64,000 nt of DNA, from positions 67,203 through 131,202 of the forward strand of contig PHFL01000010.1 in assembly GCA_002794105.1 (NCBI GenBank), written 5' to 3'. Within the stretch, counting starts at the first letter, position 1. Each line of letters starts with the position of its first letter. The notes under the pieces are model-generated. The model saw only the letters and a program-made list of their open reading frames with translations. It ran no database searches and was not told the origin of the DNA. Below are positions 71-53,285 of the stretch, piece by piece. Origin of the DNA: Candidatus Thermochlorobacter aerophilus. GTDB lineage: Bacteria > Bacteroidota > Chlorobiia > Chlorobiales > Thermochlorobacteraceae. A program made the position numbers and the translations under genes.

Positions 71-292
71 GTATGGATGCTTCACTGCGCTGCGCTTCGG
101 TCAGCATGACAAATTGGAGATGGCAAACCTCACCCTGTTGTCCCTCTCCTTGCAAAAGGAGAGGGACGTCTGCGCCAGCAGACAGGGTGAGGTCAATCCA
201 GCGTGGATGCTTCGCTGCGCTGTGCTTTGTTCAGCATGACAGCATGAAAAGCGTGGATGCTTCGCTACGCTTATGCTTTGTTTAGCATGACA
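71..292. repeat. Three copies of a dispersed GTGGATGCTTCGC...CAGCATGACA repeat
   Basis: Copies lie at 71-111, 201-241 and 251-292. Each starts GTGGATGCTTC (GTATGGATGCTTC in the first) and ends in a version of TCAGCATGACA. The same unit recurs at 10132-10192 and 10225-10275, where it is preceded by TGTCATTCC...GAGGAATCCCGTGC, giving a longer element of about 60 bases. In reverse it reads as the peptide CHAERSEAS, a motif familiar from interspersed repeats in many bacterial genomes. It is non-coding, most likely a REP/MITE-like element. No transposase is nearby. Confidence 0.75.
128..192. repeat. Inverted repeat element, CCTCACCCTGT ... ACAGGGTGAGG
   Basis: The outer arms are perfect 11-base inverted repeats (128-138 and 182-192). 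Inside is a second perfect hairpin, CCCTCTCCTT (142-151) and AAGGAGAGGG (156-165), around a four-base loop. The nested palindromes suggest a mobile palindromic unit. A decayed copy lies just downstream of the PFOR gene at about 4057-4136. It sits between copies of the other repeat family, so the two appear to co-insert. Confidence 0.75.
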
Positions 293-48105: not shown

Positions 48106-50264
48106 TCAGTGCAAGAAAAGCATTTCCAGATAAGTAGGAATAGGATACAGACTTCTATCAATCTGACCTTCCAACCTATCGGCAATCTCGCGCACATGAT
48201 TCATAGCGGGTATGATAACTTCTGCACAGTATTCGGCTTGTGCCTCTATGCCGCCTTTTTGATGATGAATCTCGTGGGTGAGCTTTTCCAAGCGTTCCGT
48301 GCGCAATATCAGCTCAGCAATGTTGTTAGCAAGTTCAGAAATCAAGGCAGACTGTTTCTTCTTAGCGGTGCGCTCAAGTTTGAGCGATTTGCTAACCTGC
48401 ATAAGTTTTCCAAATGAGTCAGCAATTTCTCTTTGGAAGCGCATGCAGGCAGGTAAAATTTGTGTGCGAATCATCATCGCAAGGGTCTTAGCTTCGATAT
48501 CGATTGCCTTGATATAGCGCTCTAAGCAAACTTGATAACGGGCATCAATTTCTATTTCAGTTAAAACTCCGTATTTGACAAAGAGCTTGCGTACGCTGTC
48601 GTCTTTCCAAACCTTCATGGCTTCAGGCAGGTTGCGGTGGTTGGGCAGACCACGCTTTTTGGCTTCCTTCTGCCATGCTTCGCTATATCCGTCGCCATCA
48701 AAACGAATGGGTTTGGTTGCCTTGATTTCACGGCGCAAGACTTCAAAGATGGCAGCTTGTAGCTCTTTGCCAGAAGCCATTTCCGCTTCAATAGCTTCAC
48801 GCATCTCATCAATTGCCTCTGCCATGATGGTGTTAAGCACCATGTTGGGAATTGCAATTGGCATTGAGGAGGGCACTGCACGAAATTCAAACTTATTACC
48901 TGTAAAGGCAAATGGTGAAGTGCGGTTGCGGTCAGTATTATCCTTGGTGAGTGTCGGAATGTGAGAGATGCCTAAGTCAATAAATTGCTTTTCAGTAGTT
49001 TTAGTCATGTGCCCATTTTCAATAGCATCTAGAATGGCATTGAGCTGGTCGCCTAAGAAAACCGATATAATAGCAGGCGGAGCTTCGTTAGCCCCCAAAC
49101 GGTGGTCGTTACCGGGATTAGCAATAGCGGCACGTAAGACACTGGCACGCTTATGTATGGCTTTCAAGACGGCAACGAGGAAGACAAGAAATTGCAGATT
49201 GGATTCAGGAGTATCGCCAGGGTCAAGCAAATTGCCACCGACATCAGCACCTATAGACCAGTTGTTGTGCTTACCAGAGCCGTTGATACCAGCAAAGGGT
49301 TTTTCATGAATAAGCAATGCTAAATCTTTGCGCTCTGCTACACGCCGTAGCATTTCCATGGTAAGCAAGTTGTGGTCAGCTGCCAGCGGTGTCTCTTCAT
49401 GGATTGGAGCAATTTCAAACTGATGTGGAGCAACTCATTATGACGTGTCTTGACAGGAACGCCTAACTGGTAAAGCTCTCTTTCAAGCTCTTGCATGAAC
49501 TCCATGACACGGTCAGGAATAGAGCCAAAATAGTGGTCCTCAAGTTGTTGGTTCTTTGGCGGAAGAGCACCAATAAGAGTACGACCAGTCATGATAAGAT
49601 CTGGACGCTGTTCATAGAGCGAGCGATCGATGAGAAAGAACTCTTGCTCAGCACCAACATAGGTGGTAACTTTTGAAACTTTCGTGTTACCTAAGAGGTG
49701 CAAGAGCTTGATTGCGGCTTTGCTTAGCGCACGTGCAGAGCGTAAAAGCGGTGTCTTTTCATCGAGTGCTTCGCCGTGGTAGGAAATAAACACCGATGGA
49801 ATGCAAAGCGTGGTGCCTTCTGGACCCTTCATGAGAAAGGCAGGAGTACTGGGGTCCCAAGCTGTATAACCACGTGCCTCAAATGTGGTACGCATGCCGC
49901 CAGATGGAAAACTCGAAGCATCGGGCTCACCTTGAATGAGTTGATTGACAGAAAATTTCTCAATTAGTTGCCCATCTTTGTCGAAGGCAATAAATGCATC
50001 ATGTTTTTCAGCTGTGGTGCCAGTCATGGGTTGGAACCAGTGGCAGTAGTGTGTGGCACCATTTTCAATAGCCCATTCCTTCATGGCTTGAGCGACGTGT
50101 TCAGCAATGCGTTCGTCGAGCTCTTCGCCCATGGTCAGGGTTCGCATCAAAGACATATAGACATCTTCAGGCAGTCGCTCGCGCATCACTTGATGATTAA
50201 ATGTAAGCGAGCCAAACATGGCGGCGTTTTCAGAAAGCGTCAGCGTTCCGTTTTGAGTCGACAT
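48106..50264 (-). pseudogene. glnN: Type III glutamine synthetase, interrupted by a one-base frameshift
   Basis: Together the frames give about 719 residues, the normal length of GSIII, which makes glutamine from glutamate and ammonia. The first part holds [38 protein letters not shown] and [12 protein letters not shown], and reads in frame up to KTRHNE. The second continues [14 protein letters not shown], then LIHEKPFAGINGSGKHNNWS and RLGANEAPPAI. The break lies at about 49434-49436, where GAGTT would be GAGGTT; one missing G accounts for it. All catalytic segments survive, so a sequencing error or a rarely expressed allele is possible. It follows an Lrp-type regulator with a 36-base gap. 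Confidence 0.9.
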
Positions 50265-50300: not shown

Positions 50301-50801
50301 CTATATGCTATTGTTTTTACTATGCTCTAAACTTTCCAAGACTTTCTGGGAGTTGATGCAATGCGATTTCTTGATTTCACTGAGCACGATGCTGGTCTGC
50401 GTGCCTGTCACGCCCGTCCAAGATTGAATGCGTGCCAGAAGTTTTTCTAAGGCGCTGGTGTCGGAGACAACAGCTTTAATTAGATGCGAGCCTTCGCCTG
50501 TAACCGAGTAGCATTCAGTAATCTCGTCTTCCTTGTGCACATTCTGAATAAGCGTGGGATAGTGCTTTGAAGAATCCATCGTTACACGAATAAACGCAAT
50601 GATGTCGTAGCCTAACTTTTTGACGTCAACCAAGGTCGTAAAGCCTTTGATGATGCCGCGCGCTTGCAGTTTTTCCAACCGCTCACTGACCGAAGGAATC
50701 GAGAGTCCAACGGCTGCAGCAAGCTCGCTGCGTCTCATCCGGCCATCCTCTGAAAGCATTTCAATGAGCTTGAGGTCAATCTTGTCTAAGTGCCACGACA
50801 T
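50301..50801 (-). CDS. Lrp/AsnC family transcriptional regulator
   Basis: 166 residues. It has an N-terminal helix-turn-helix (LDKIDLKLIEMLSEDGRMRRSELAAAVGLSIPSVSERLEKLQARG) and a C-terminal RAM domain (FIRVTMDSSKHYPTLIQNVHKEDEITECYSVTGEGSHLIKAVVSD). Members sense amino acids or related compounds. It is read toward glnN with a 36-base gap, so it is likely in the same transcript and may control nitrogen assimilation; direct proof is lacking. Confidence 0.9.
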   Translation of the reverse strand: MSWHLDKIDLKLIEMLSEDGRMRRSELAAAVGLSIPSVSERLEKLQARGIIKGFTTLVDVKKLGYDIIAFIRVTMDSSKHYPTLIQNVHKEDEITECYSVTGEGSHLIKAVVSDTSALEKLLARIQSWTGVTGTQTSIVLSEIKKSHCINSQKVLESLEHSKNNSI

Positions 50802-51174
50802 GTGTGTGAGCCTAGATTTTTCATGCTTAAATTTTCAGCAAAAAGTCAGGTAATCGGTAAAAGAAGACACGAGTCTCCTAAAAAAATTAGGCAAAGGCGC
50901 AATAGTTTCTTACAAATTTAAAACTTTTGCACAAAATTGCAAGCAAAGTGTAGTCAAAAGTCCTTAAAAACCTCATAAATAAGGGAAGTGGGAAAAACCA
51001 AGAAAGCTATGCAAACACCAGACTGCAGTGCCACATCGTTTGCAACTGGATATGCGTTGAGCTATGCAAACACAAATACTGCTTTTGAAAAGCTACACAG
51101 GCGCGCTAACTTTGCTTAGTAGTTCAAAGAAATGGAGCTATCAGACATTTAACCTTTGAAAGGAGAAAACAGCT
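50802..51174. promoter_or_regulatory. Divergent intergenic region with a 14-base direct repeat
   Basis: This AT-rich gap of 373 bases separates the lrp-glnN run from the small gene at 51175 and should contain both promoters. AGCTATGCAAACAC occurs twice, at 51005-51018 and 51060-51073, spaced 55 bases start to start. Such a repeat in a regulatory gap is a candidate binding site for a protein, possibly the neighbouring Lrp. A strong ribosome site, AAAGGAG (51159-51165), precedes the small gene. No open frame longer than trivial length is credible here. Confidence 0.5.
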
Positions 51175-51525
51175 ATGGCTGATGAACCAAAAAAGCTTTC
51201 GCCGATGATGGCGAAAAAGCTTGCCCAACAACAAGCTGCCAAAGAAGCATCGTCAGCGACGGAAACCAACACACCCGCTGCAGAAACAGAACCTGCACCT
51301 GCTACAAAGGCAACCACCATACCTATTGCAAAGCCAGCAGCTAAGGCAGAAAGCGCACCAAAAAATCCCGATGGCACGCGCTATGGCTACAGCGATGGCT
51401 TGCCCTCTGTGTTCGGCACACCGCCAGCGATTGATGAAGCATACTTTGTAATCAAAACCGTTTCGTCCATTCCAGCGGCTATTGTTGAGGGCATAATGAA
51501 CTTTTTCAAAAAAGTTACAAGCTAA
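51175..51525 (+). CDS. Unknown small Ala/Lys/Pro-rich protein
   Basis: 116 residues; not recognised. Residues 1-65 are low-complexity (KKLSPMMAKKLAQQQAAKEA, then many Ala, Thr, Glu, Pro and PAPATKATTIPIAKPAAKAE), without cysteines or a signal peptide. The C-terminal 50 residues look folded or amphipathic: DGTRYGYSDGLPSVFGTPPA, then VIKTVSSIPAAIVEGIMNFFKK. AAAGGAG nine bases before the ATG is one of the best ribosome sites in the window, suggesting high expression. It is the only plus-strand gene between 34659 and 54550. The composition recalls the N-terminal tail of the Chlorobi reaction-center protein PscB, but it has no Fe-S cysteines, so that identity is not claimed. Confidence 0.6.
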   Translation: MADEPKKLSPMMAKKLAQQQAAKEASSATETNTPAAETEPAPATKATTIPIAKPAAKAESAPKNPDGTRYGYSDGLPSVFGTPPAIDEAYFVIKTVSSIPAAIVEGIMNFFKKVTS

Positions 51526-51572: not shown

Positions 51573-53285
51573 TCATGAACGGCGCCGAAGTTGACGCTGA
51601 AAAACTTCGGAATGAAACTTAAAGAGTTTATCAAGGTGTGCAGTCCAGAAGGAAAAGTCATGCGAGCCTTCGAATGTTAGGAAAGTATGTTTAACTCGGC
51701 GCCGGCGCAAAATTCGAACCGCAGCCTGGTGACTGGGAAGAAAAAGATTCTGCGTACCTGTTAGGAAAAAAAAGTCAGTGGCTCTGAGTGTGGAATCGGC
51801 ACTGCGTTCAAGCAGTGAAGTAGCCATGTAGGCATTCCAGAAACTGTGGTCGCCACCATCAATTGCAGTTTGTGTAGCAGGACGGTGATCGAGCGTGCCC
51901 ATCAAGCTACCGACAGCAGAGAAAAGTGCCTGACCTTTTTCTGTTTTTAATGCCAAAAATAGGGCAGCAGCTCCACCCCATGAAACCCCAGCTACGGCTC
52001 GTGCTGCACGCTGACGAATGGCACGATAGTCTTCTTCGACCAAATCTGGCAATTCCTCCAAGAAAAAATTTTCGTAAGCGCGCTTGCCATCTTTTGAATT
52101 CACATAGTATGAGCCATGCTCATTAGGCATGACCACAATCATCTCTATGATTTGTTTTCTGCTTATAAGCGAATCCAAAAAACGGTCTAATTCAATCTCA
52201 CGCCAGAGCAGATGTGTGCCGCCCTGTGGATGCAAAAGATACAGCACCGGGTAGGCACGGCGACGATGTTGCAGAAAAGATGGAGGAAGATAAACACCCA
52301 CAGAGACTTTGCGCCGCATATAAGCCGAATTGATTTCCAAATCAAAAAATCGGGATTGATTGCCAATCTCCAGCCACTTGCCATTCTCGAGCTGAAAATA
52401 GCGCTCATCATGACCAAGATAGCTGACTTTATTTTGCCACTTGATTTCTGAATCGTAGTCAGCAACGACAAGACTGTCTGAGACCTGATAGACTTGAAAG
52501 TCATGATAGGTAATAGTGGCGCCAGCAAGGCGCTGTGTGATGGCTTGTGCGAAAAGTTTTTGCTCGGCATAGCGAGTGCCGTTGTTGAAGTATCGCTCAG
52601 AGACAAGGCTCATGTAGGCTTCAGGTTGGCGTGAGATTAGCATGGTATCCATCACTTCCACTGTGCGGCGAATAATCTGTGCGATGCTATCTGGTGCTGG
52701 CACAGCAGGTTGCTGGAGTGCCGCGCGCATTGCCGTTTTCGTAAAAATGCCGATGAGCTTTTTGTCTGGTCCAGCACCAGCGTAGATGCCACCATCAAAG
52801 TTTTTGCAAAAAACACGCACCGCTAAAGTGTTGGTCTTGCCGTATGCTATCAGTGAATCAGGTAGTAGATAGGCGCGCAATTCACCATCAGCAGGGTTTT
52901 CCATGCTGCCAGTCTTTCCAATGAGCTGACCGTTGAGATAGGCTTCGTCAATACTGTTGATGCGTCCGAGTAACAAGTAAAGCGGTTTACCTTTTGCGGT
53001 TTCAGGCAAAACGAAGGTTCTGCGATAAAGTGCCAGTCCAGAAAAGCCGCGTGAGATTTCATAGTCATTCCAAAATCCGGGTACAGAGATACTAACCCAG
53101 CTTGAATCGTTGTAATCGGGCAAAAGTGCTTCTCTACTGGCGGCATAAAATCCGAAAGCAATGCGCCATTCACCATGAAGTGGAAGCGCAAATTCTTTGT
53201 TTGGTGAAGTCTGTCCCCAACCAACTAGCGGATGGAAGACAAGGTAAGCAAACCATAGATGCAGAAGCCAAAAGCAATACCGCAT
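51573..53285 (-). CDS. Three-domain secreted esterase
   Basis: 570 residues. A signal peptide (CFWLLHLWFAYLVFHPLVGWG) is followed by a beta-sandwich like that of family 2 glycosidases (SVPGFWNDYEISRGFSGLALYRRTF, AYLNGQLIGKTGSME). A SnoaL/NTF2-like middle segment (ISRQPEAYMSLVSERYFNNGTRYAEQKLF) follows, then an esterase-D-type alpha/beta domain with VGVYLPPSFLQHRRRAYPVLYLLHPQGG, nucleophile motif AGVSWGGAAALF, and a C-terminal FEGSHDFSFWTAHL (His). It probably cleaves an ester on a carbohydrate or lipid outside the cell. It lies five bases after the yihY stop on the same strand. Confidence 0.8.
   Translation of the reverse strand: MRYCFWLLHLWFAYLVFHPLVGWGQTSPNKEFALPLHGEWRIAFGFYAASREALLPDYNDSSWVSISVPGFWNDYEISRGFSGLALYRRTFVLPETAKGKPLYLLLGRINSIDEAYLNGQLIGKTGSMENPADGELRAYLLPDSLIAYGKTNTLAVRVFCKNFDGGIYAGAGPDKKLIGIFTKTAMRAALQQPAVPAPDSIAQIIRRTVEVMDTMLISRQPEAYMSLVSERYFNNGTRYAEQKLFAQAITQRLAGATITYHDFQVYQVSDSLVVADYDSEIKWQNKVSYLGHDERYFQLENGKWLEIGNQSRFFDLEINSAYMRRKVSVGVYLPPSFLQHRRRAYPVLYLLHPQGGTHLLWREIELDRFLDSLISRKQIIEMIVVMPNEHGSYYVNSKDGKRAYENFFLEELPDLVEEDYRAIRQRAARAVAGVSWGGAAALFLALKTEKGQALFSAVGSLMGTLDHRPATQTAIDGGDHSFWNAYMATSLLERSADSTLRATDFFFLTGTQNLFLPSHQAAVRILRRRRVKHTFLTFEGSHDFSFWTAHLDKLFKFHSEVFQRQLRRRS

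Follow-up and report, generated by a model that had tools for sequence, protein, structure and literature searches.

What is the small protein of 116 residues that Candidatus Thermochlorobacter aerophilus encodes in an isolated gene, flanked on both sides by genes of the minus strand, and is it related to the reaction center protein PscB, as its low-complexity head first suggested? The window (the whole stretch of DNA that was analysed, 64,000 nucleotides) contains the following elements around this gene:

51175..51525, + strand, gene of the 116-residue small protein, stop included (ORF list, homologs, dN/dS)
51160..51165, + strand, Shine-Dalgarno sequence AAGGAG, 9 nt before the ATG (sequence)
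51084..51114, + strand, Bacteroidetes-type promoter TTTG-N19-TAACTTTG (pattern match, published consensus)
50301..50801, - strand, divergent gene of an Lrp/AsnC-type regulator, a positional marker which is not part of the system

On the right, an esterase-like gene (51573-53285, - strand) reads toward the small gene. The original prediction had placed the open reading frame, its start and stop, the strong ribosome site and the isolated plus-strand position exactly where we find them, and AAGGAG- or GAGGAG-type sites also precede the homologs at loci L002-L004, L006-L011 and L013. A 78-residue antisense frame (51141-51377, - strand) overlaps the small gene; it was rejected, since the pattern of codon changes, the promoter and the Shine-Dalgarno sequence all favour the plus-strand gene. 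The leader RNA of the gene shows nothing special in a structure calculation (z-score 0).

The pair TTTG/TANNTTTG is the published promoter consensus of the Bacteroidetes (PMC6847099). The sole exact match to TTTG-N19-TANNTTTG in the 64 kb window is the promoter of the small gene (0.47 expected), and a scan for sigma-70 promoters gives no plus-strand site. The pattern TTTG-N19-TAAYTTT occurs at the same place and on the same strand in eight of the nine genomes of the family (L001-L008), the exception being L010 (genome G005), which has no exact match; in G001, a promoter-like sequence is retained though the small gene has moved to other neighbours. In two genomes (L037, L038) Lrp too is preceded by this pattern, so that it represents a class of promoters and not a signal peculiar to the small gene. 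That the protein would be abundant, as had been guessed, is supported only indirectly, by the strong Shine-Dalgarno sequence and the conserved Bacteroidetes-type promoter.

The small protein is not confined to one species. A search with the single protein finds homologs throughout the window's family, where all nine genomes give E-values of 5e-15 or lower. G010, which represents a third family by itself, matches at 3e-16, and the two genomes of a second family give weak matches (G009 at 1e-4, G012 at 0.008). The second-family sequences are included in our profile A3 and score well with it by construction, so that the independent support is an E-value of 1e-4 and position for G009, and an E-value of 0.008 and position alone for G012. 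With the Chlorobiaceae counterpart described below, the search in Chlorobi and relatives suggested at the outset returns homologs in four families, and their presence in 9/9 genomes of the family and beyond bears out the claim of a real conserved gene. A profile of the tail, run against 296 genomes sampled evenly over the phylum, has no credible match beyond the order (the best one there has an E-value of 0.0099, in a frame that holds a stop), a scan of the genome collection with one peptide pattern gave five loci, each bearing the name Chlorobiales, Thermochlorobacteriaceae or Chloroherpetonaceae, and a search of plasmids gave no match. These searches indicate that the family is restricted to the order Chlorobiales.

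The protein can be divided into three parts:

51175..51237, + strand, residues 1-21, N-terminal basic motif MADEPKKLSPMMAKKLAQQQA, helix predicted from residue 10 (alignment, dN/dS, AlphaFold2)
51238..51363, + strand, residues 22-63, linker rich in Ala, Pro, Lys, Thr and Glu, of variable length and predicted to be disordered (pLDDT, alignment, dN)
51364..51522, + strand, residues 64-116, conserved C-terminal region NPDGTRYGYSDG..FGTPPAID followed by a putative helix-Pro-helix docking tail (alignment, AlphaFold2, dN/dS, match to Chlorobiaceae tails)

In an alignment of 12 homologs, the tail IPAAIVEGIMNFFKK and the N-terminal KKLSPMMxKKL are among the most conserved parts; the C-terminal block RYGYGDGxxSxFGxPPAIDEAY... 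is followed by a helical tail with an invariant proline. In the first (the window's) and third families, the linker ranges from about 40 to more than 100 residues while both ends hold; the KKLSPMMxKKL motif is absent from both members of the second family. Six pairwise codon comparisons, covering two genera, give an overall dN/dS of 0.03-0.12, ratios which are rough because pS is near saturation in several of the pairs; the N-terminal motif gives 0.02-0.04 in the four comparisons with finite, non-zero dS, and the dN of the linker exceeds those of the N-terminal motif and of the tail in all six. The small gene is under purifying selection, which is weakest in the linker.

AlphaFold2 predicts helices at residues 10-26, 85-98 and 101-115, with pLDDT of 79-86 in the tail blocks and below 50 at residues 27-61; the overall mean is 60 and the pTM 0.21, and we claim no tertiary fold. 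The hydrophobic moment of the last helix (window 101-115) is reached by a fraction of 0.0075 of shuffled sequences, that of the C. tepidum-like tail by 0.0025 and that of the tail of G028 by none of 2000, while the first tail helix (window 85-98), at 0.06, is marginally amphipathic. The conserved-looking amphipathic tail of the original prediction therefore holds, with a marginal first helix, and so do the low-complexity Ala/Lys/Pro-rich head and the lack of metal ligands, there being neither cysteine nor histidine in the 116 residues.

This modular conservation of tail, linker and N-terminal motif is what leads us to read the protein as a small strap or adaptor. Its family, restricted to the Chlorobiales, is genuine, and we propose, with about even chances of being right, that it works as a small, non-enzymatic tether: the C-terminal amphipathic helix would dock either on another protein or on the membrane from its cytoplasmic side, the linker, predicted to be disordered, would act as a flexible spacer, and the short basic helix at the N-terminus, which two of the four families have, may bind a second site. 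We infer this role from the design alone, that is, from predicted helices and disorder; prediction and conservation do reveal the features of the class, a conserved terminal helix and a variable disordered linker. The tail alone is common to all four families, and a two-ended tether is not the universal form, since the Chlorobiaceae proteins have almost no linker and those of the second family lack the N-terminal motif. The earlier idea of a structural or complex-bound accessory protein fits this anatomy in its second half.

The composition of the head could also suggest a nucleoid- or RNA-binding protein with a Lys/Ala/Pro tail of the histone H1 type, and the basic N-terminal motif would agree with it. 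H1-like tails are strongly basic. A DNA-binding tail of this kind requires a strong net positive charge, whereas the whole protein has a net charge of +1, the Ala/Lys/Pro/Thr/Glu-rich head carrying nine lysines but seven aspartates or glutamates; we rejected the histone-like identity, and consider nucleic acid binding in general very improbable.

Searches of Pfam, NCBIfam and the PDB gave matches at chance level (the lowest E-value, 0.0078, in one of 12 members), none convincing above the curated cut-offs of Pfam or NCBIfam, and we saw no enzyme motif in the small protein. A literature search with the presumed locus tags CT1413 and CT1415 returned no relevant paper. According to these database and literature searches the protein family is apparently undescribed, and it adds an order-wide family to the green sulfur bacteria.

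As for known systems, the encapsulation peptides of microcompartment cargo proteins are an example of docking peptides made of a linker and an amphipathic helix. The small protein resembles them in that a Pro/Ala-rich linker leads to an amphipathic helix at the end of the chain, but it consists entirely of linker and ends, with no enzyme domain. The C. tepidum-like ortholog used here comes from genome G034, whose PscB is identical to a piece presumed to be C. tepidum PscB. Neither this ortholog nor the window protein matches a relevant solved PDB chain, and we rejected an identity with PscE or PscF. In the C. tepidum reaction center, these two subunits (UniProt Q8KDI3 and Q8KG87) are small accessory proteins like ours, PscE being charged and helical (PMC9529944); they differ from it in that its C. 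tepidum-like ortholog has no relevant solved chain.

PscB itself was the relative first considered, and it does share with the small protein, in the Chlorobiaceae, an Ala/Pro/Lys-rich spacer after a short N-terminal segment, and a MAEP/MADx-type start in some members. However, PscB requires two 4Fe-4S motifs with their cysteines, and none is found in the 116 residues, so that the identity is rejected: a long Ala/Pro/Lys head is present, but no iron-sulfur domain lies behind it, and the PscB central GKxRLxxLxVxLGRxG-like motif is missing. The small protein is moreover a separate gene; the window genome has its own PscB piece on contig C38, which contains a gap of N letters and was left out of the counts of frame length. 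The iron-sulfur domain of PscB was found in 92 of the 98 genomes of the order. Among the genomes of the first and second families, all ten whose gene is uncut have an open frame of 121-161 residues, the match in G001 containing one internal TGA; in the Chlorobiaceae, the frame has 204-320 residues in 80 of the 81 genomes matched, the other being a partial match of 63 residues. In the window's family, PscB is uncut in eight members, and in 8/8 of them its frame is too short to include a long Ala/Pro/Lys head, which also speaks against kinship. The third-family genome gave no PscB match and cannot be placed in this comparison.

Following the resemblance thus brought to light that PscB is headless in the deeper lineages: the Thermochlorobacter- and Chloroherpeton-type proteins (L123, L124) lack the head of about 130 residues rich in Ala, Pro and Lys. 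The long PscB head is therefore a Chlorobiaceae trait, and its role becomes a comparative question. Several Chlorobiaceae heads (L120, L128, L130, L146-L148, L152, L121, L122) contain a conserved central motif, GKxRLxxLxVxLGRxGVRQESA-like, within a low-complexity stretch. In the published structure, this stretch is unmodelled; the two ends of C. tepidum PscB bind FMO and residues 17-129 form the unmodelled loop (PMC9529944).

These data raise the idea that the small protein would be a stabiliser of the reaction center/FMO complex on the cytoplasmic side, a spacer provided in trans where PscB lacks its long head. It is consistent with the way PscB binds FMO through its ends, with the short PscB of the first and second families, and with the linker of the small protein, whose length runs opposite to that of PscB: long beside the short PscB of the first family, short beside the long one of the Chlorobiaceae. 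Yet this contrast represents a single split in the tree (n=1), we found no homologous motif, and no result of this analysis connects the protein directly with the reaction center. Comparisons of the heads with those of PscB reach at most 5 of 500 shuffles in 6 of 30 cases (most clearly for the Chloroherpeton-like G009, with 3 of 5 PscB heads), a test that is confounded because shuffling destroys short repeats, so that similarity beyond composition is suggestive at most; the resemblance to PscB seems mostly compositional. We regard the stabiliser as quite unlikely. A more elaborate version has a slim chance: the small protein would be a detachable PscB head which, where PscB is headless, supplies in trans a flexible strap to keep FMO, or a different soluble partner, attached to the reaction center. 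After the Chlorobiaceae had built the strap into PscB, the small protein would have shrunk to its docking helix, and many Chlorobium-type genomes would later have lost it.

The small protein has a counterpart in the fourth family, the Chlorobiaceae, where we located the same spot from the Lrp gene (found in 20/20 genomes). Seven stretches (L043-L049) contain a short frame divergent from Lrp and followed by a gene which we presume to be crtQ. Taking as start the ATG nearest the conserved block, this frame is 63-84 residues long, with almost no linker. Its tail, PAxxDLRFVVKESLNLGxRFxxEVDRMLKKL, aligns end to end with that of the window's family; a single ungapped register scores +11.1, the next best -7.7. 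Comparing the tails alone, hhalign gives a score of 18.7, which none of 300 column shuffles reaches (13.1 at most); its own probability is low (38%), so that the homology rests on the shuffle test, the register and the position. AlphaFold2 predicts the Chlorobiaceae tail as a single helix (residues 33-64, pLDDT about 90; model pTM 0.36). Taken together, these comparisons indicate that the Chlorobiaceae protein is a shorter, diverged version of the window protein, and its ortholog in Chlorobaculum is in an organism where deletion and tagging are possible.

A profile of 30 Chlorobiaceae sequences matches 41 of the 98 genomes of the order, all of them among the 86 Chlorobiaceae: 20 of the 21 of one genus (g9) and 21 of the 65 of another (g7). 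It does not detect the gene in the other 45 Chlorobiaceae genomes. Four g7 loci (G015, G037, G046, G055) retain Lrp next to crtQ, and no frame in the gap matches; in a fifth (G041), Lrp lies outside the stretch. The gene of the FMO antenna is kept in 12/12 tested genomes that lack the small gene, so that green-sulfur phototrophy does not depend on the small protein, and a core photosynthesis subunit is ruled out by this result together with the 45 absences. FMO is also present in 20/20 of another set of genomes, which carry the gene; the presence of the gene is no test of a link to phototrophy, because the FMO marker classes all the genomes tested as phototrophic.

The proximity of crtQ suggests a different role, that of an accessory factor of carotenoid desaturation which would help the CrtQ-like desaturase to bind the membrane or its substrate. 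The crtQ-like gene is the next one, about 110-215 nt downstream, at L043-L049 and L097; in the third-family genome (G010) its start lies on the same strand about 130 nt beyond the small gene, and in G012 the distance grows to about 5.5 kb, again downstream. On the other hand, crtQ lies on another contig in 4/4 genomes tested of the window's family, Chlorobiaceae without the small gene retain crtQ (9/9 tested), and in the four Chlorobiaceae loci with Lrp in view, Lrp and crtQ adjoin with no matching frame in between. We consider this role unlikely. The window's assembly (G000) itself contains two crtQ copies with identical scores (C9, C15) and has 12% contamination, which points to mixed strains in the bin.

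Last, the neighbourhood could suggest a regulator of nitrogen metabolism. The glutamine synthetase inactivating factors IF7 and IF17 of cyanobacteria are small and disordered. Like them, the protein is small, by prediction largely disordered and, in some genomes, close to glutamine synthetase: in the window and the relatives inspected, the divergent neighbour is Lrp/AsnC, and glutamine synthetase comes next. This placement is not kept in G004 and G006, where the gene is about 8 kb from Lrp, nor in G001, where it is on a different contig, yet it keeps its own promoter; the likeness to IF7/IF17 is moreover one of description. We find this alternative hardly probable at all. A palindrome, CCTAAAAAAATTAGG (50877-50891), lies about 75 nt upstream of the Lrp/AsnC start and is the sole match to CCTAA-N5-TTAGG in the window (0.05 expected). 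Related CTWAA-N4-TTWAG boxes are kept in the intergenic gap beside Lrp, in relatives that have the small gene and in others that lack it, which indicates that the palindrome belongs to Lrp and looks like its operator. The Type-III-like glutamine synthetase of the window (48106-50264, - strand) is split into two overlapping frames of 308 and 420 residues (overlap 49338-49368); that of the relative G002 (L119) is also split, elsewhere in the gene, and that of G009 is one frame of 729 residues, so these splits may be either sequencing errors or real frameshifts.
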